A stretch of DNA of 64,000 nucleotides from Acidobacteriaceae bacterium. GTDB taxonomy: Bacteria > Acidobacteriota > Terriglobia > Terriglobales > Acidobacteriaceae. The position numbers were made by a program, and so were the translations under genes. Shown in pieces: positions 36,846-44,305 of the stretch (positions are counted from its first letter, which is position 1; each line of letters opens with the position of its first letter). Under the pieces are notes generated by a model, which saw only the letters and a list, made by a program, of their open reading frames with translations, searched no databases and was not told where the DNA came from. The DNA lies in NCBI GenBank assembly GCA_025462885.1, contig JAOAPN010000014.1, positions 744,001 through 808,000 of the forward strand. Reading direction: 5' to 3'.

Positions 36846-37497
36846 AACTTCAAGGAAAAATTGCTGTCGTCACTGGTGCATCAAATAGGAATTGGTGCTG
36901 GCATCGCAAAAGCATTCGGTGCGGCCGGCGCAACGGTCGTCGTGAACTATGTGTCGAACAAGAGCGACGCTGAGACTGTTGTTGCACAGATTGAGGCGCA
37001 AGGCGGCAAGGCCATCAGCGTTCAAGCGGACATGAGTAAGGCAGTCGATGTTATCCGGTTGTTCGACAAGGTTAAAGCTGACTACGGCACGCTGGACATA
37101 CTTGTTAATAATGCAGGCTTCGCGATATTTCAGATGATTGAAGACCTGACCGAGGAAGCATTTCATCAGCAATTCAACGTCAACGTATTGCGTTATCAAC
37201 ATCAGCTCTATCCTAAGCACCGACCCCTATCTGGCATCCAGTGTTTACTCCGCAACCAAGGGCGCGGTCGATACACTGACGTTTGCCTTGGCGAGAGAGC
37301 TTGGTCCGCGTGGGATCAGGGTCAACTCCATCCTAGTTCGCCAGGCTGGTACAGGTCTCGAACGTACTACCAAGACGAACTCAAATGGTTTTTATTCTCT
37401 GCCTGCACCTCGTGCTGGAGAGTATATTTGTCCGCGCACAAGCGTCGGGCTTTGGCGCGTAGAGCAACTGGGCGTTCCTGAGCGAAAGGAAGCTTAG
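36842..37497 (+). pseudogene. Broken SDR dehydrogenase fused to a TonB-receptor N-domain fragment
   Basis: Three frames carry one SDR. MKLQGKIAVVTGAS reads from the ATG at 36842. A shift near 36880-36890 moves the rest of the glycine motif and body (GIGAGIAKAFGAAGATVVVNYV to LVNNAGFAIFQMI) to another frame. At about 37190 an internal deletion removes the segment before VINISSIL and shifts again to SSVYSATKGAVDTLTF (active-site Tyr/Lys) and ARELGPRGIRVNSIL. Directly after, in the same frame, the protein turns into GTGLERTTKTNSNGFYSLPA, which is a carboxypeptidase-regulatory-type segment of an Oar-like receptor, ending at a TAG at 37495-37497. Confidence 0.75.
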
Positions 37498-37764
37498 AGA
37501 TAGCCAGTTTAATTTCCTGCAGCCGACCCGCATCGCTGCCTTCAAGGTTGATCAACGTTCCGCTCAGGAAGTTCGGCATCGTCAACCACCGTTCACCGGT
37601 AGCAACTTTATCCGCACTCTACGGCTGTCCCCGAGGTGGCCTTAGAAATACATCCGACGCCACTCAATACCTGGTTCACGTTGATCCGCCGGACTAGGTA
37701 TTGAGTGGCCTCGGCTGAAAAGTTTCAGAGATAGGACGAAGGATCGTCTTGATCGACAATGTGA
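37498..37764. other. Gene-free stretch with 14-bp inverted repeat
   Basis: A perfect 14-bp inverted repeat (GCCACTCAATACCT at 37659-37672, complement at 37696-37709) with a 23-base loop lies downstream of the GH99-like gene and could end its transcript. No T-run. The rest shows no recognisable gene. Confidence 0.45.
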
Positions 37765-38982
37765 TCAAGATCGAAATACCTTGCGGACGGCTTCGAGATA
37801 CGCAGCGCCGTGTTCGGCGTCAGGCTCGAGATAACTGCCCTCAGTCCACTCGTTCCACGAGTTGAGGGTGACCAGGCGCTTGCCTATAGGTAGATGGCTG
37901 AGCGCAAAATTCTTTGCTGAGCGAAGAGCTTCTTCGAATGCCTGCGGCGAGTTGTTGACGACCACGGATGTGAACGGATAGCCGCCCACGCGGAAGTTGT
38001 CCGTTTGACAGGTACGAGGGGTGGCGTCCCATCCGACAGTTACATTGGGGAAGTACATGCAACCCAGTTTTGCCGAAGCCTGACTGCGGTACGTCTCATA
38101 CTGACGGCGGACACTTTCGTATTCTGTAGTGAGCGCGTTTGCAAGCTGCGCGTGGTGAATCCACACGTAGGAGGTCGTGCTATCGATGTGTAGTTGCCGT
38201 AGCAAGTCGGGCAAGTTCGTGACCTCCGCCTCACCGGGCAAGAGCTTCACACCCCAAGTGACCGCATTGATGTGGACACCAGGAAAGCCAGCGGCACGCG
38301 CCTTCTCGCGGATTGCATCGAGTGCCAGCGCAGCCTGCGAGACTCCCCCCATCCCCTGGACGAAGCGAAAAAGTTCGTATATGGAAAAGTAAGGTTCTCC
38401 ATCGAGTTTGAGATACGAGGGGTGCTGGAAGAGTTCGACAGCGCGTTCACACATCGCATCGAAGGCGGTGCGTGAAATGCCACCGTGGAACTGAACCTTC
38501 CCGGGGCTATCAAGCTTGGCAGGGTGCAGGTCGATCCAGTCATGATTTGCCCACATCAGACCAAAGCGGACATCTTTGTTGTTCGAAGCCTTGAGGTAAC
38601 CGTTGTCGAGGGCACGGTTCAGAAATGGTCCATCCTCATACCAATACCAATCAAACAAGAGTGCGTCGACGCCGTGCTGTCGAGCGGCGAAGATCTTCTG
38701 ACTGAAAACTTCAGGCGTGGACTCGTCGGTGTAACCCCACCGCGGTACCTTGGGTTGGTGGTGGCCCGAAAAGCGTGGCGTTGCGGCCTTGACCAGATTC
38801 CATTCGGTCCAACCGCTGCCGTGGGCCTTCTCGTTTCGTGGGTCCACGTGGAAGTTGCCGAAGTAATAGGCTGCGGTGATCAGAGCTTCTGACGGCGTCG
38901 ATTCGGCTGGGGCACTTCCTGAACTGATCCCACCATTTAGCAGCACAGCTCCGGCTCCGGCGACAAATTCGCGGCGATCCAT
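37765..38982 (-). CDS. Exported GH99-like (WbsX-type) glycoside-hydrolase-fold protein
   Basis: A 405-residue protein with a Tat/Sec-like leader (MDRREFVAGAGAVLLNGG; no strict twin-arginine motif). The domain is that of GH99-like WbsX proteins: AAYYFGNFHVDPRNEKAHGSGWTEW at the start, VDALLFDWYWYEDGPFLNRALD, and the hallmark SWNEWTEGSYLEPD near residue 375-388. Related domains act on or help assemble surface polysaccharides. It is divergent from the membrane regulator at 39231 (248-bp gap) and near the Oar-like receptor, consistent with glycan use. Confidence 0.88.
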   Translation of the reverse strand: MDRREFVAGAGAVLLNGGISSGSAPAESTPSEALITAAYYFGNFHVDPRNEKAHGSGWTEWNLVKAATPRFSGHHQPKVPRWGYTDESTPEVFSQKIFAARQHGVDALLFDWYWYEDGPFLNRALDNGYLKASNNKDVRFGLMWANHDWIDLHPAKLDSPGKVQFHGGISRTAFDAMCERAVELFQHPSYLKLDGEPYFSIYELFRFVQGMGGVSQAALALDAIREKARAAGFPGVHINAVTWGVKLLPGEAEVTNLPDLLRQLHIDSTTSYVWIHHAQLANALTTEYESVRRQYETYRSQASAKLGCMYFPNVTVGWDATPRTCQTDNFRVGGYPFTSVVVNNSPQAFEEALRSAKNFALSHLPIGKRLVTLNSWNEWTEGSYLEPDAEHGAAYLEAVRKVFRS

Positions 38983-39230
38983 ACGTCTCCTATTTCGTTA
39001 AGCGCTGCCAATTCAGCCTCTCGTTGCGTCCTACTAAGTTCCGCTCAGGGCGGGGTTCCGTTCTGTCACGATTTGGTACTACTCCATCTCTAGACGGCGG
39101 CCCTTGTAGTGTCAACCTTCTGCGGGAACAGTGCAGGTGCAGTGCTGTATGATTGCTCCACTAGAAAGGCTCTAACGTCTCTTTCCCCCGACAAGCCTGG
39201 TGATAGGGAGACGAGATTCGAGGTGTTGCG

Positions 39231-40598
39231 ATGCTTGCCTTTAACGAAGCCGAAACCACTGGCAAGCAGTCGCTGAGAGAAGGATCTGAGTCCTCAGAAC
39301 GCGTCGCAGAAGCGTTAGCCGACATCCTGCGCAGCCCCCGCTTCAAAGACAGTCAGCAGCTGCAGAGTTTGCTGCGATATGTCGTCGACGAGGTCTTAAA
39401 GGGAAATGAAGATGCTCTCAAGGAGCGGTTGATCGGCGTCTACGTCTTTGGTCGGCGACCCGACTACGACACGGCCGATGATCCGATTGTTCGTTCCCGG
39501 ATGGGTTTGCTCCGTAAACGGCTCGCGCAGTATTACGAAGGTGAGGATGGGGGGCACGCTGCAGTCCAGATCGTGATTCCAAACGGAACCTATCGTCCTA
39601 CTTTCGTGTTTCAGCAGGTCACCAAGGCTCCGCGCACGAAAGCTCTTCTTGCTGAGGCAGAGACGCCATCACTTCCCAGCGTAGATCCTGAGGACACAAT
39701 CATTAAGCCCATTGCGCTGCCGACCATGGTTCGGCGCATCGGCCTGACGACCGTTATCCCTTGGACGTTCCTGAGGAAGCGGAGTTTCAGAATCGGAGCC
39801 GTCGCAGCGGCTGGAGCCCTTATTCTCCTCGGATCGTGGTGGTTCTACTTCCGAACCTCGCAAAGAGAACTCGATTCGCTATGGGCGCCCATCGTAAAAG
39901 GCAAGCAGCCGATCTATGTCTATACCGGGACTATGCCGGTTTTTGAACCGGAATCGCCGGCTGACGAAGCGACGTCTCCAGCAGATCTGTCCTTGCCTAT
40001 ACATTTGCCTGAACCACCACCTGCGGATGCACCGCAGATAGGCCCAGATCGTGTCTTTTCCTATGGGGAAGGAATGCTTACGGGCTCCGTCTATGCCGAT
40101 ATACGAGTGGCCGGGCTTCTAACGAAATACAGTCGAACTCCAGTTTTGCGCTCCGGTGCGAACTTGCCCTTCATGGATCTGAAGGGGTCCCCTCTCATCC
40201 TCATTGGCTCCTTTGACAACTATTGGACACGAGTAATGAACGAAAATCTTCCATTCTATTTCGATCGCGGGTTCGGTATTCTCGAACGCGAGGGGACGCA
40301 CAGACGGTGGCACAACCCTTTGAAAGCGGAGATGACGCCCAGGATGATGGAGGATTACGCTCTCGTCTTTCGAGTTATGAACTCTAAAGCCGGGGCGCCG
40401 GTGCTGGGAATCGCCGGCCTCTCTACCTGCGGGACGCACGCGGCAGCAGATTTCGTCACCGACCCGGCACAAATGCGAGCACTGTCAGGCATTTCGCGTG
40501 CGTCTCTCAGGAACAGCAATATCGAACTGGTTCTCCACACATCCCTGGTGAACTGCTTGCCCACCTCAGTCGAAGTGATCGCCACCAAAGTTTGGTAG
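39231..40598 (+). CDS. Transmembrane regulator-like protein (acidobacterial N-domain, one TM helix, periplasmic domain)
   Basis: 455 residues. Residues about 24-125 form a domain widespread in Acidobacteria at the front of regulators: SPRFKDSQQLQSLLRYVVDE, LIGVYVFGRRPDYDTADDPIVRSRMGLLRKRLAQYY and IPNGTYRP; the form suggests DNA binding. A basic patch (LRKRSFR) then a helix at about 188-207 places the N-domain in the cytoplasm and residues 210-455 in the periplasm. The outer domain (PLILIGSFDNYWTRVMNENL, VLGIAGLSTCGTHAAADFV) is not assigned. It lies upstream of the Oar-like receptor and opposite the GH99-like gene, so it probably senses a periplasmic signal for them (inference). Confidence 0.75.
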   Translation: MLAFNEAETTGKQSLREGSESSERVAEALADILRSPRFKDSQQLQSLLRYVVDEVLKGNEDALKERLIGVYVFGRRPDYDTADDPIVRSRMGLLRKRLAQYYEGEDGGHAAVQIVIPNGTYRPTFVFQQVTKAPRTKALLAEAETPSLPSVDPEDTIIKPIALPTMVRRIGLTTVIPWTFLRKRSFRIGAVAAAGALILLGSWWFYFRTSQRELDSLWAPIVKGKQPIYVYTGTMPVFEPESPADEATSPADLSLPIHLPEPPPADAPQIGPDRVFSYGEGMLTGSVYADIRVAGLLTKYSRTPVLRSGANLPFMDLKGSPLILIGSFDNYWTRVMNENLPFYFDRGFGILEREGTHRRWHNPLKAEMTPRMMEDYALVFRVMNSKAGAPVLGIAGLSTCGTHAAADFVTDPAQMRALSGISRASLRNSNIELVLHTSLVNCLPTSVEVIATKVW

Positions 40599-41035
40599 CG
40601 AAGATCCGAAACTTCCCTTCGAGGTAACAGCGCAATCTCCGCCGCGCGGTTCTTCCAGGACCGAGGGAGATTCGTCAGCTGCAACACAGCGAACGTCTGG
40701 CAACAACAGAAGCCGGATGCGGCTATCGTTCAAGTCGGCTTTCAACTGCAACGAAGGTTGGCGCTCGGCAAGATCGCGAGTGCGTCACCTCGGCAACTTG
40801 CGCCACTTGATCGATGACGCTGCACGCCTTCGATAGAGCGCCGAACTTCCCACGACACGTGACCGCTGCACTTTCTTAACTGGTGTTGCAGCACTTGAGG
40901 TTATGCGGATGAGCCTACCGCACCATACCTATACCGTACCTGCGGACCATTGACAGTTGGTCGGGCTAAACCATAGGTCTTATGAGGCTTGTAACCCCGC
41001 AAGTTTCACAATTGATCTTTTTCCAGGAGGCAACC
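40599..41035. other. Intergenic leader before the Oar-like receptor
   Basis: 437 bp without a convincing gene. A -35-like TTGACA (40950-40955) is followed after 17 bp by ATAGGT, a poor -10, so the promoter call is weak. The ribosome site AGGAGG is at 41025-41030. Confidence 0.4.
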
Positions 41036-44000
41036 ATGAGCTTTAAACTGCTCGATCCAATTCTCCGACCCTTGGTCGCAGAGAAAAACAGAAAGATACA
41101 GACACGCGGTCAGATACAAAGGAAGGGGGCCCTTGCCGGCTTCGTTCTGCACGCTCTGTTTTTAGTTGCTTTTGTATCGGTCCCACAGCGGCAGGCAGTC
41201 GGTCAAACAAACCTTGCCAGTATCACAGGAACGGTCACCGACAGCAACGGAGCCGCGGTTCCGAACGTCAGTGTCAGCATCCTGAATACAGAAACCACAG
41301 CAGTGCGCGTGGTTACGACGGATGCAAATGGATTTTATACGGCCCCCTCCTTGACTGTCGGTTCGTACCGCATCACGACGACGGCCAACGGCTTTGCTAA
41401 GACGGCGGTCTCGGCCTCGCTGACTTTGGGCGGTCTCAACCTTGACGTTCACATGAAGGTGGGAAGCGTCTCTGACGAGATTACGGTGATTGGATCATCA
41501 GCATCGATGGCTCTCCAGACAGACAGCCATGAGTTGTCCACTTCCGTGGACAGCGTGCAACTGACAACAATTCCAAACGGTGGCCGCAGTATCCTCAGCA
41601 TCGCCACCCTTGGCCCGGCTTCACAGGCCGGCACGGACGCTTCCACCTCGGCTGGCGACCAAAGCTTTTATGGCCAGACCGCCAACGCAGTCATCCTTGC
41701 GGGCCTGGGACCAAATCAGACACAGTTCCTGCAAGACGGCATCGACAACACAAATCTCCTGACGCAGACCGCAAACATCCTTGCCTCCGTCGAGGCGGCC
41801 AAAGAGGTCTCGACTCTCTACAGCAACGCGCCCGCCATCTTCAGGCAGCCTGCGATCGTCAACGTCATCACCAAGAGTGGCTCCAACCAGTTCCATGGGA
41901 CGGTCTACGACTTCCTCCAGAACGACGCTGCAAACGCCAAGAACTGGTTTGCGACGTCGAAAGCGCCACTGCGCTACAACCTCTTCGGCGGCAACCTGGG
42001 TGGGCCGATCTTCCGCGACAAGCTCTTCGGCTTCTTTGATTACTCCGGTCTTCGAAGCCACTCGTCCGGCCTCTCTCAGAATCGTGTTCCTACAGCCGCA
42101 GAGCGTGCGGGAGATTTTTCTGCCGATCCCGTTATCTACAATCCCGCGACCTATAACGCCGCAACCGGCACTTCCGCCCCCTTTCCGTCGAACAAGTTAC
42201 CCGCTATCAGCCCGTTTGCCCAGCTTTGGCTGCAGAACTATCCTCTGCCGAACATGGCGCTCAACGCGAACAATGTGAACTACCAGGTTAATATTCCCTC
42301 GATCAGTAACTATGACGAGTATCTGGGCCGCATCGATTGGAACATCTCCGCGAAGAACCAGCTTTTCGGAACGGTAGCTCGCTACAGCAGCTCCGGTGGT
42401 GGGAATAGTATTGTTCCAGGGCTCTTCGGTATCAGCATTCCACTCAAGGGCACCAACGCTTCCATCACGGACACTTATATCCTGAGCAGTCGCGTCGTAA
42501 ACGCCTTGAAGATTGGCTACAACCGCAGCAATCTGTTCCGAACACAGCAGGGAACCGGCGCGAAAAACTACGCAAATTTTTATGGATTGAAGAATCTCAA
42601 CCCGCTGCTTGAGCAGTCGACGCCGCCCGCGATCTCCGTCTCTAACTACACGTCGCTGGGCGATCCATACTCCCCGCAGGGAGCGATCCAGAACCGTTAC
42701 CAATTTGCGGATCAGATCACCTGGACGCTGGGCAACCACACGCTAACTGTTGGTGGCGAATTCATCCGTGTTCAATTCAACGGAGGCTGGGTCGTTACAA
42801 ACAACGGCAACTATGGCTTCGATGGATCCGCGACATCGCAGTACATCGGAGGAAAGCGCAGCACGGCCAATCAGGGCAATGCGCTAGCCGACCTGGAACT
42901 CGGATTTCCCGTCAGCGGAAGCGGCCTTACAGGTACCTCCGCAGGAGCGTTCCGAGAGTTCGATGTATCCGGGTTCATTCAGGATGATTGGAGGGCAACC
43001 CCCCGTCTGACTTTCAACGTAGGGTTGCGGTACGACTACATCAATCCTCCCACCGATAAGAACGGACGCGGTGCGCTTTACTCGCTCGCAGCAAATGCGA
43101 ACAGGCCTGGCAGTTGGAACGCGAACTATGGTGACTGGGGCCCGCGAGTCGGTTTCTCCTACAAGGCGGCAAACAACACTGCTATTCGTGGCGGTTATGG
43201 TATTTACTACGCGCCGATTCTCTACAACAATCTTCAGTTCATGCTGCTGTACTCCCCGAACGTGGTGTCTCAGAGCTATAACCTCAACATCCAGTCGCTG
43301 CAGAATATACAGAATCTTTTCTCGGCCAATCCACCATCCGTCCCGGGCCAGGGTGGTTACTCCATCAACCCAACGCTCAAGGACACTTCGACGCAGGAAT
43401 GGAATCTGAACGTCGAGCAAAAGCTCGGAATCAGCACGATGCTGACGGTGGAGTATCTCGGCAATGTCACGCGGCACCAGTCTTCTCGTGCGGATCTCAA
43501 CCAGCCGATCGCTCTTTCTGCCGGCAATACTTCCGGCAAGCTGGACGTCCGCCCTTTTCCGAGCGCAGGTCCCATTAACGGTCAGCTCAACGCACTGAGC
43601 GCGAACTATAACGCGCTTGGCGTCAAGCTGGACCGGAGACTTTCTAAGGACCTTCAATTTCTGATCAGTTACACCTGGCAGAAAGCACTGAATAGTGTGG
43701 ACGGTGACAACAACAACATCCAGTCGATCTACAAGCCTCAGTTGACGTACGGTCCAGCGAGCTTCAATCGCGGACAGAGCCTTAACATCAGCCCGATCTA
43801 CTTCCTTCCCTTCGGGCCCGGCAAACGATTCCTGAACTCGAAAAACATCTTCAACCGCGAGATCGTTGGAGGTTGGGAGCTTGCGGGCCTGCAGTACTTT
43901 GCGTCTGGCCAGCCTATCTCGGTCACCGCCAATAATAACGCGGACACGAGCCCGAGCCACCCTACCTATGCGAATCTCACCTGCAATCCTATGCAGGGAT

Positions 44001-44305
44001 TCCAGCGTACGCGATTCAAGATCTTCAATCCTGCGTGCTTTGCACAGCCTGCAGCGGGTCAATACGGCACCACCCGTTCGGTGGGGGTGCAACCCAAAGT
44101 TTTCTCAACGAACCTGTCTGTGTTGAAAAATTTTTCTATCACCGAGCATCAGCAGCTTCAGTTCCGGGCGGAGGCGTTTAACCTCTTCAACCATCCACTC
44201 TTCAGCACCGGCGGCGGTGGCGTCACCTCTCCGACGCTTGGTGTGGCAACTTCGCAGTCAAACACTCCACGGTCGATGCAGTTCGCCCTCAGATACTCGT
44301 TCTGA
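41036..44305 (+). CDS. Oar-like TonB-dependent receptor with carboxypeptidase-regulatory domain
   Basis: A 1089-residue outer-membrane protein. A basic N-terminus is followed by a signal segment (about 32-58, GALAGFVLHALFLVAFVSVPQ), a CarboxypepD_reg/Cna-B-like domain (about 60-140, TGTVTDSNGAAVPNVSVSIL and TTDANGFYTAPSLTVGSY), a plug-type segment (VQLTTIPNGGRSILSI, QDGIDNTNLL) and a long beta-barrel ending FALRYSF. No classical TonB box is evident. The ATG at 41036 has AGGAGG upstream. Such proteins import oligosaccharides or other large ligands. The adjacent GH99-like protein and sensor suggest a glycan. Confidence 0.92.
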   Translation: MSFKLLDPILRPLVAEKNRKIQTRGQIQRKGALAGFVLHALFLVAFVSVPQRQAVGQTNLASITGTVTDSNGAAVPNVSVSILNTETTAVRVVTTDANGFYTAPSLTVGSYRITTTANGFAKTAVSASLTLGGLNLDVHMKVGSVSDEITVIGSSASMALQTDSHELSTSVDSVQLTTIPNGGRSILSIATLGPASQAGTDASTSAGDQSFYGQTANAVILAGLGPNQTQFLQDGIDNTNLLTQTANILASVEAAKEVSTLYSNAPAIFRQPAIVNVITKSGSNQFHGTVYDFLQNDAANAKNWFATSKAPLRYNLFGGNLGGPIFRDKLFGFFDYSGLRSHSSGLSQNRVPTAAERAGDFSADPVIYNPATYNAATGTSAPFPSNKLPAISPFAQLWLQNYPLPNMALNANNVNYQVNIPSISNYDEYLGRIDWNISAKNQLFGTVARYSSSGGGNSIVPGLFGISIPLKGTNASITDTYILSSRVVNALKIGYNRSNLFRTQQGTGAKNYANFYGLKNLNPLLEQSTPPAISVSNYTSLGDPYSPQGAIQNRYQFADQITWTLGNHTLTVGGEFIRVQFNGGWVVTNNGNYGFDGSATSQYIGGKRSTANQGNALADLELGFPVSGSGLTGTSAGAFREFDVSGFIQDDWRATPRLTFNVGLRYDYINPPTDKNGRGALYSLAANANRPGSWNANYGDWGPRVGFSYKAANNTAIRGGYGIYYAPILYNNLQFMLLYSPNVVSQSYNLNIQSLQNIQNLFSANPPSVPGQGGYSINPTLKDTSTQEWNLNVEQKLGISTMLTVEYLGNVTRHQSSRADLNQPIALSAGNTSGKLDVRPFPSAGPINGQLNALSANYNALGVKLDRRLSKDLQFLISYTWQKALNSVDGDNNNIQSIYKPQLTYGPASFNRGQSLNISPIYFLPFGPGKRFLNSKNIFNREIVGGWELAGLQYFASGQPISVTANNNADTSPSHPTYANLTCNPMQGFQRTRFKIFNPACFAQPAAGQYGTTRSVGVQPKVFSTNLSVLKNFSITEHQQLQFRAEAFNLFNHPLFSTGGGGVTSPTLGVATSQSNTPRSMQFALRYSF

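Follow-up and report, generated by a model that had tools for sequence, protein, structure and literature searches.

A three-gene module in a soil bacterium of the Acidobacteriaceae appears to be governed by one protein that spans the inner membrane, senses on one side, and binds DNA on the other. The module, read from the list of open reading frames (ORFs) of a 64-kb stretch of DNA (hereafter, the window), consists of an enzyme gene on the minus strand, a divergent regulator gene on the plus strand, and a gene for an Oar-like TonB receptor on the plus strand. In the reading favored here, to which a probability of roughly 0.7 is given, a membrane-anchored, CadC/ToxR-like one-component regulator activates both the enzyme and the receptor genes through two operators.

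The enzyme gene (37765–38982, minus strand), identified from the ORF list and a Pfam scan, encodes a 405-aa protein that matches PF14307 (WbsX) over residues 37–399 (5e-55, 187.8 bits), above the curated cut-off of 25.1 bits. Going by its name, PF14307 is presumably a GH99-like family, and a glycosidase role is no more than predicted from sequence; no relative of solved structure was found among PDB sequences at E up to 0.1, and no literature linking WbsX with GH99 was found. An RR (Tat-like) motif noticed by eye near the N-terminus suggests that the enzyme is exported, and its substrate in this locus is likely a glycan. The first-pass annotation had described a divergent pair of a GH99-like gene and a gene for a single-helix protein, followed by an Oar-like receptor, and all three genes are confirmed by the ORFs and the Pfam scan. 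It had also stated that neither SusD nor a two-component or ECF/anti-sigma pair is present, which agrees with the seven ORFs scanned (the three locus proteins and four neighbors), in which no SusD, sensor kinase, ECF sigma factor, or anti-sigma factor was found; one of the scanned neighbors, outside the module, encodes an AraC-type regulator. On the far side of the enzyme gene, a short-chain dehydrogenase frame (36861–37481) matches adh_short over its first half only and appears truncated or frameshifted. Between this remnant and the end of the enzyme gene lies an inverted repeat with perfect 14-bp arms, GCCACTCAATACCT, enclosing a 23-base loop (37659–37709); in its exact form it occurs once in the genome.

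The regulator gene (39231–40598, plus strand) encodes a 455-aa protein that was delineated from the ORF list, a Pfam/NCBIfam scan, and hydropathy, and that matches nothing in Pfam or NCBIfam at E up to 1. A single transmembrane helix is predicted from hydropathy at residues 188–206 (39792–39848, plus strand), where the best 19-residue stretch after the N-domain has a mean hydropathy of 1.65, the corresponding values in three named orthologues being 1.87 to 2.7. Alignment and the Pfam scan place a putative outer, periplasmic sensor domain of 248 aa without a Pfam family behind the helix (39852–40595, plus strand). The single-helix membrane protein and the periplasmic domain of 245 residues that had been proposed earlier are thus recovered, the former by one hydrophobic stretch in the hydropathy profile and the latter by the 248 residues that follow it.

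The N-domain, of about 110 residues (39297–39626, plus strand), is probably a divergent OmpR/CadC-type winged helix; this assignment rests on remote homology, in which several moderate lines agree and none is decisive. The window protein has no match to PF00486 (Trans_reg_C, cut-off 26.2 bits) at E up to 1, and it is not among the 8 of 20 family N-domains that match PF00486 weakly; a paralogue reaches 23.4 bits, below the cut-off. When compared with eight Trans_reg_C domains of the same genome by hhalign, the N-domain is aligned to OmpR-type domains with a probability of 88.7 and E of 2.6e-6 over 48 columns. An AlphaFold model of the N-domain built from four sequences has a mean pLDDT of 68.8 and a pTM of 0.66, and VIA-align of 102 Foldseek chains against it gives the six highest rows to DNA-binding domains of the OmpR type (Z 5.1–5.9), led by E. 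coli CadC at a middling Z of 5.9, with PhoB on pho box DNA (1gxp) at 5.7; DNA-binding domains of other types fill ranks 7–10, and chains that are clearly unrelated appear from Z 3.2 downward. Foldseek alone returned nothing at E ≤ 0.001 for the model, the best row, at E 0.78, being the DNA-binding domain of ArlR. The sole match among PDB sequences, a TetR-family chain at E 0.24, was rejected, and a model of the full-length regulator from four orthologues was discarded at a mean pLDDT of 34.4. The likely DNA-binding N-domain of the first-pass annotation is upheld in that the predicted fold is one able to bind DNA, as judged by the hhalign probability and the six top VIA-align rows. At least 17 genes of the genome carry this N-domain, the window's included.

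The outer domain belongs to one diverged family, of which 45 sequences were aligned, and comparison with PDB and Pfam gave nothing firm. PF05124 (S_layer_C) matched weakly in 6 of the 45 members (best E 0.001) and is kept as a lead only, and one S-layer chain in PDB, at E 0.21, was likewise set aside. Two members of the regulator family carry two malectin (sugar-binding) domains in place of this outer domain (L152:6976-8550 and L115:5823-7406), and the receptor gene is adjacent in one of them and two genes away in the other. Such an exchange of the outer domain while the receptor stays near fits the sensing of a ligand.

The receptor (41036–44305, plus strand) matches PF13620 (CarboxypepD_reg) with 60.7 bits and PF25183 (the OMP_b-brl_4 barrel) with 698 bits, both above cut-off. 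Its longest frame opens at 40982; however, the ATG at 41036, with AGGAGG just upstream, is the more likely start from sequence, and the alignments of orthologues from five genomes, which open at residues 1, 7, 16, 16, and 22 as numbered in the long form, do not settle the choice. No match to an STN signaling domain was found in the receptor, and PF13620 is the sole domain at its N-terminus. At least 65 PF25183 receptors are encoded in the 5.26-Mb genome (65 of 114 candidates scored).

When the two intergenic gaps of four species were aligned, one conserved block emerged in each gap, and both blocks, read outward, have the form RYACYRYACCT RYACYRYWCCY, followed by 8 bases and TTGACA, that is, two 11-bp direct repeats and a -35 hexamer. 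In the window, the receptor-side block (40920–40955, plus strand) is composed of a predicted operator, GCACCATACCT ATACCGTACCT (40920–40941), and the predicted -35 hexamer of the receptor promoter, TTGACA (40950–40955). Similarly, the enzyme-side block (39110–39145, minus strand) is composed of a predicted operator, GCACTGCACCT GCACTGTTCCC (39124–39145), placed 8 bp before the TTGACA that is the predicted -35 hexamer of the enzyme promoter (39110–39115). The same predicted operator therefore stands in both of the gaps that had been singled out earlier for binding (39.0–39.2 and 40.6–41.0 kb), facing the enzyme in one and the receptor in the other. The enzyme-side operator also sits where the -35 of the regulator's own promoter would be, a TATGAT at 39148–39153 (plus strand) being a possible -10 of that promoter. 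Neither target promoter was listed by a sigma-70 scan, which demands a good -10; their absence from the scan fits dependence on an activator.

With up to 3 mismatches, the pattern finds two sites in the window and none in 100 shuffles of it, and exactly two sites in the whole 5.26-Mb genome, where the reversed control finds none. Because the pattern itself had been drawn partly from the window's sites, an independent matrix was made from the receptor-side sites of three other species alone; it scores the window's receptor site at 41.3 and its enzyme site at 32.4, and the next-best site at 14.9. Across seven species and 28 half-sites, A3, C4, and C9 are invariant.

The repeats and the regulator also travel together across genomes of the family. 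In separate draws of 300 genomes each, made with the same settings, the operator (up to 2 mismatches) was found in 5 genomes and an orthologue of the regulator (E ≤ 1e-100) in 5, the orthologue counts being lower bounds with up to 5 candidates scored per genome; these are the same 5 genomes and no other, and in each the regulator is flanked by operator sites, exactly one on either strand. The pattern had been derived without G333, G413, and G460, three of the five. The first of these, G333, came up through the DNA pattern alone, in an initial set of 100 genomes, when nothing was yet known of its genes, and its module is complete, with identities of 81% for the enzyme, 67% for the regulator, and 81% for the receptor; G413 and G460 also hold all three genes. 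Since the sites adjoin the regulator gene, inheritance of the locus explains this perfect co-occurrence in part, and its weight lies in the fact that the repeats are kept in gaps that have otherwise diverged, match between the two gaps, and are absent elsewhere, both in the rest of the genome and in the searched genomes that lack the regulator.

Enzyme, regulator, and receptor occur together in six of the seven species that could be examined, namely the window's, KBS 146, an Edaphobacter MAG, G333, G413, and G460, and this recurrence argues that the arrangement is not due to chance. L030 and G023 (L047), whose regulators are identical, were taken as one species, and G432, whose operator sites are identical to those of L028, was taken as the species of L028. 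The seventh, Granulicella S156, has the regulator and the receptor, and the glycoside hydrolase gene was not found within the 8 kb fetched; a GH127 gene follows its receptor. The enzyme-side operator is retained in S156 (L028:7881-7916) although the fetched stretch holds no GH99-like gene, which suggests that the site also serves the regulator's own promoter.

Beyond this module, the N-domain is found at E ≤ 1e-8 in at least 27 of 197 genomes of the phylum, with up to 24 candidates scored per genome. The association of the regulator family with receptors was surveyed in 60 regions, hand-picked with better scores favored from 119 matches outside the window's genome, together with all 16 paralogues of that genome. 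Among the 64 members shorter than 580 aa that have a stretch of mean hydropathy of at least 1.6, a receptor is directly adjacent to 46 and within two genes of 55, as compared with a receptor next to 7 of 202 genes in 20 random control regions, all taken from genomes other than the window's own. Counted among the 64 are the window's regulator, a TPR protein (L094), both malectin members, and four members of 317–339 aa, one of which is cut at its region's end, whereas the orthologues L028–L030 are excluded; if the regulators of L098 and L145, which are hidden by overlapping ORFs, are added by hand, the count becomes 47 of 66. In the window's own genome, 10 of 13 members have a receptor next to them. 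The 46 adjacent pairs comprise 32 divergent pairs, 11 with the receptor downstream, and 3 convergent pairs. Another 14 members, which are long or without a clear helix and include several TPR proteins, have 3 adjacent receptors, all next to proteins of 737–754 aa; four members reach this length, and the two of them that were scanned each carry PD40 propellers. The survey of such proteins beside Oar-like receptors, for which the first-pass annotation had called, thus supports a recurrent association, at 46 of 64 against 7 of 202.

The other neighbors are far less uniform. Next to the own-genome paralogues, 2 of 16 scanned neighbors are glycoside hydrolases (a GH27-type alpha-galactosidase and a GH106 rhamnosidase) and 4 of 16 have no Pfam match, and the remainder include sugar-nucleotide enzymes, a phosphoesterase, a PI-PLC, an FAD oxidoreductase, and a metallo-beta-lactamase-like gene. 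With glycoside hydrolases at 2 of 16, a glycan was not taken to be what the family at large senses. In the same genome, two PF00486-PD40 regulators (L162:1536-3821 and L197:1268-3454) also adjoin PF25183 receptors, which implies that the N-domains of regulators linked to receptors are of two kinds or more. Further receptors of this genome (L158–L197) adjoin genes that, by eye, resemble LacI, IclR, and ROK regulators.

Whether the 11-bp repeat extends to the whole family was approached through 41 other regulator–receptor gaps, in which, at width 14, a lag of 11 ranks first of 36 lags, with a value of 8.63 as compared with 7.99 in shuffles (sd 0.13, with 8.42 the highest of 200). A first control, made of the upstream regions of 11 other receptors, placed lag 11 at ranks 23, 28, and 34 of 36; because this control was too small, 40 more receptor upstreams without such a regulator were taken, in which it ranks 6, 10, and 7 of 36. 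The regulator-linked gaps differ from these 40 upstreams by a marginal amount, with p of 0.17, 0.045, and 0.22 at three widths, and footprints in two close paralogue pairs gave no clear operator. A repeat common to the whole family is therefore suggestive only. In other Acidobacteriota, regulators of this kind, which in some cases bear a different outer domain, occur paired with Oar-like receptors and presumably have operators of their own.

Taken together, the proposed mechanism would begin with the outer domain, which would perceive a periplasmic signal, probably a breakdown product or a bound form of the locus's glycan. The inner winged-helix domain would then bind the 22-bp operator, with its two 11-bp direct repeats, as a head-to-tail pair, and with operators just upstream of both -35 boxes, one protein could activate the enzyme and the receptor alike. 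The first, enzyme-side operator would at the same time cover the regulator's own promoter, so that the regulator may adjust its own level; it is the overlap with this presumed promoter that suggests self-control. The earlier idea of a one-protein path from periplasmic sensing to the control of receptor and enzyme has held up in the two respects in which it could have failed, the recurrence beside receptors and the fold of the N-domain, with the control itself predicted; its glycan element is likely for this locus and no more than conjectural for the family.

The sign of the control is the point on which a repressor, released by the signal, would differ. The placement of the enzyme-side operator over the -35 region of the regulator's presumed promoter, a usual place for repression, and the perfect TTGACA of both -35 boxes speak for repression of the enzyme and receptor genes. 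In both target promoters, however, 8 bp separate the end of the operator from the downstream -35 box, which is left free, the -10 regions are weak, and the related fold family, that of PhoB and CadC, consists mostly of activators. An operator upstream of a free -35 box, combined with weak -10 regions, favors activation, and repression is judged improbable, the less probable of the two functional alternatives considered here.

The main rival concerns what is sensed rather than what is controlled: the regulator may read the receptor itself, its outer domain touching the receptor's periplasmic N-terminal domain, and still bind DNA directly. FecA–FecR signaling is a precedent for a regulator that contacts the periplasmic N-terminal domain of a receptor. 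No partner is as constant as the receptor, which stays in S156 without the glycoside hydrolase and lies adjacent in 46 of 64 members, whereas the neighboring enzymes vary widely. Moreover, the distances of regulators and receptors correlate over 44 pairs (L028–L030 and L155 having been dropped), with r of 0.32 for the outer domain and 0.28 for the N-domain, neither of which is reached in any of 5000 shuffles. Yet the two domains co-vary with the receptor about equally, the receptor offers PF13620 and no STN domain at its N-terminus, and the malectin-type outer domains of two members point to the binding of a ligand; receptor sensing is thus considered unlikely, although it deserves somewhat more credence than repression. 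That the neighborhood is merely incidental, any regulator often adjoining one of so many receptors and the repeats being unrelated promoter features, might be argued from the number of PF25183 receptors, at least 65 in this genome, many of which stand, by eye, beside genes resembling other regulators. This explanation is strongly disfavored and has hardly any probability left, given the adjacency of 46 of 64 as compared with 7 of 202 control genes and the repeats that are common to both gaps, conserved, and absent elsewhere.

The analysis yields a candidate sensor family and a precise predicted operator that points to target genes, and it provides a route to substrate assignment, in that one ligand would be expected to be common to outer domain, receptor, and enzyme. 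How receptors are regulated in Acidobacteriota, one genome of which encodes at least 65 of the Oar-like type, and which substrates they serve thereby become directly testable. A broader proposition, which may be given even odds, is that the phylum possesses an alternative to SusD/HTCS/ECF control, in which each member of a large unnamed family of membrane one-component regulators would act through a private 11-bp-repeat operator on one Oar-like receptor and an enzyme, with interchangeable outer domains (the unnamed domain, malectin pairs, and PD40 propellers) setting the nutrient.

Among known systems, the polysaccharide utilization loci (PULs) of Bacteroidota combine SusC/SusD with HTCS or ECF/anti-sigma regulation. 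The module shares with them an outer-membrane TonB receptor, a putatively exported enzyme, and a local regulator, but in the seven ORFs scanned it has no SusD, HTCS, ECF, or anti-sigma factor, and its predicted control is by one protein; the distinction from Bacteroidetes PULs drawn in the first-pass annotation accordingly stands by the SusC/SusD definition over those ORFs. The FecA/FecR/FecI arrangement differs as well, since the receptor has no STN domain and no sigma or anti-sigma gene lies among the seven ORFs. The pho box of PhoB/OmpR-type regulators consists of two 11-bp direct repeats, and the predicted operators resemble it in their tandem 11-bp direct repeats near a -35 box; unlike the pho box, their repeat sequence is different and found only with orthologues of the regulator, and unlike PhoB, the regulator has no receiver domain. 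The PF00486-PD40 regulators of L162 and L197 likewise stand next to a receptor, but they consist of a Trans_reg_C domain that matches PF00486 above cut-off and a PD40 propeller, whereas the regulator of the window shows no PF00486 match in its N-domain and none to any propeller family in its outer domain.

In the literature searched, no description of such a regulator–receptor pair was found in titles and the beginnings of abstracts among the matches listed, subscription papers and preprints falling mostly outside, and nothing on the control of Oar-like receptors in Acidobacteriota was found among the matches listed; the literature compared includes parts of papers on Solibacter (PMC3174227) and Granulicella WH15 (PMC7074687). 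The closest relatives are the transmembrane transcription regulators (TTRs), such as ToxR, TcpP, and CadC, which, according to a survey (PMC10269533), are a known and widespread kind and are more numerous per genome in Acidobacteriae than on average. With a DNA-binding domain, by remote homology, and at least one transmembrane helix, by hydropathy, on the same polypeptide, the regulator probably falls within the TTRs, and it shares with them the inner DNA-binding domain, the membrane helix, and the outer sensor, with no kinase or sigma factor. The survey identified DNA-binding domains by Pfam models, none of which the window's N-domain matches, and neither this outer domain nor a frequent pairing with Oar-like receptors is described in the sections of it that were compared; "TonB" does not occur in its main text (PMC10269533). 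Of the earlier suggestion of an undescribed system, the particular combination therefore persists, as no description of it surfaced in the literature searched, and the novelty of the path does not: because a membrane-bound, one-protein path is already known from ToxR and CadC (PMC10269533), the module is better regarded as a variant than as a wholly new system.
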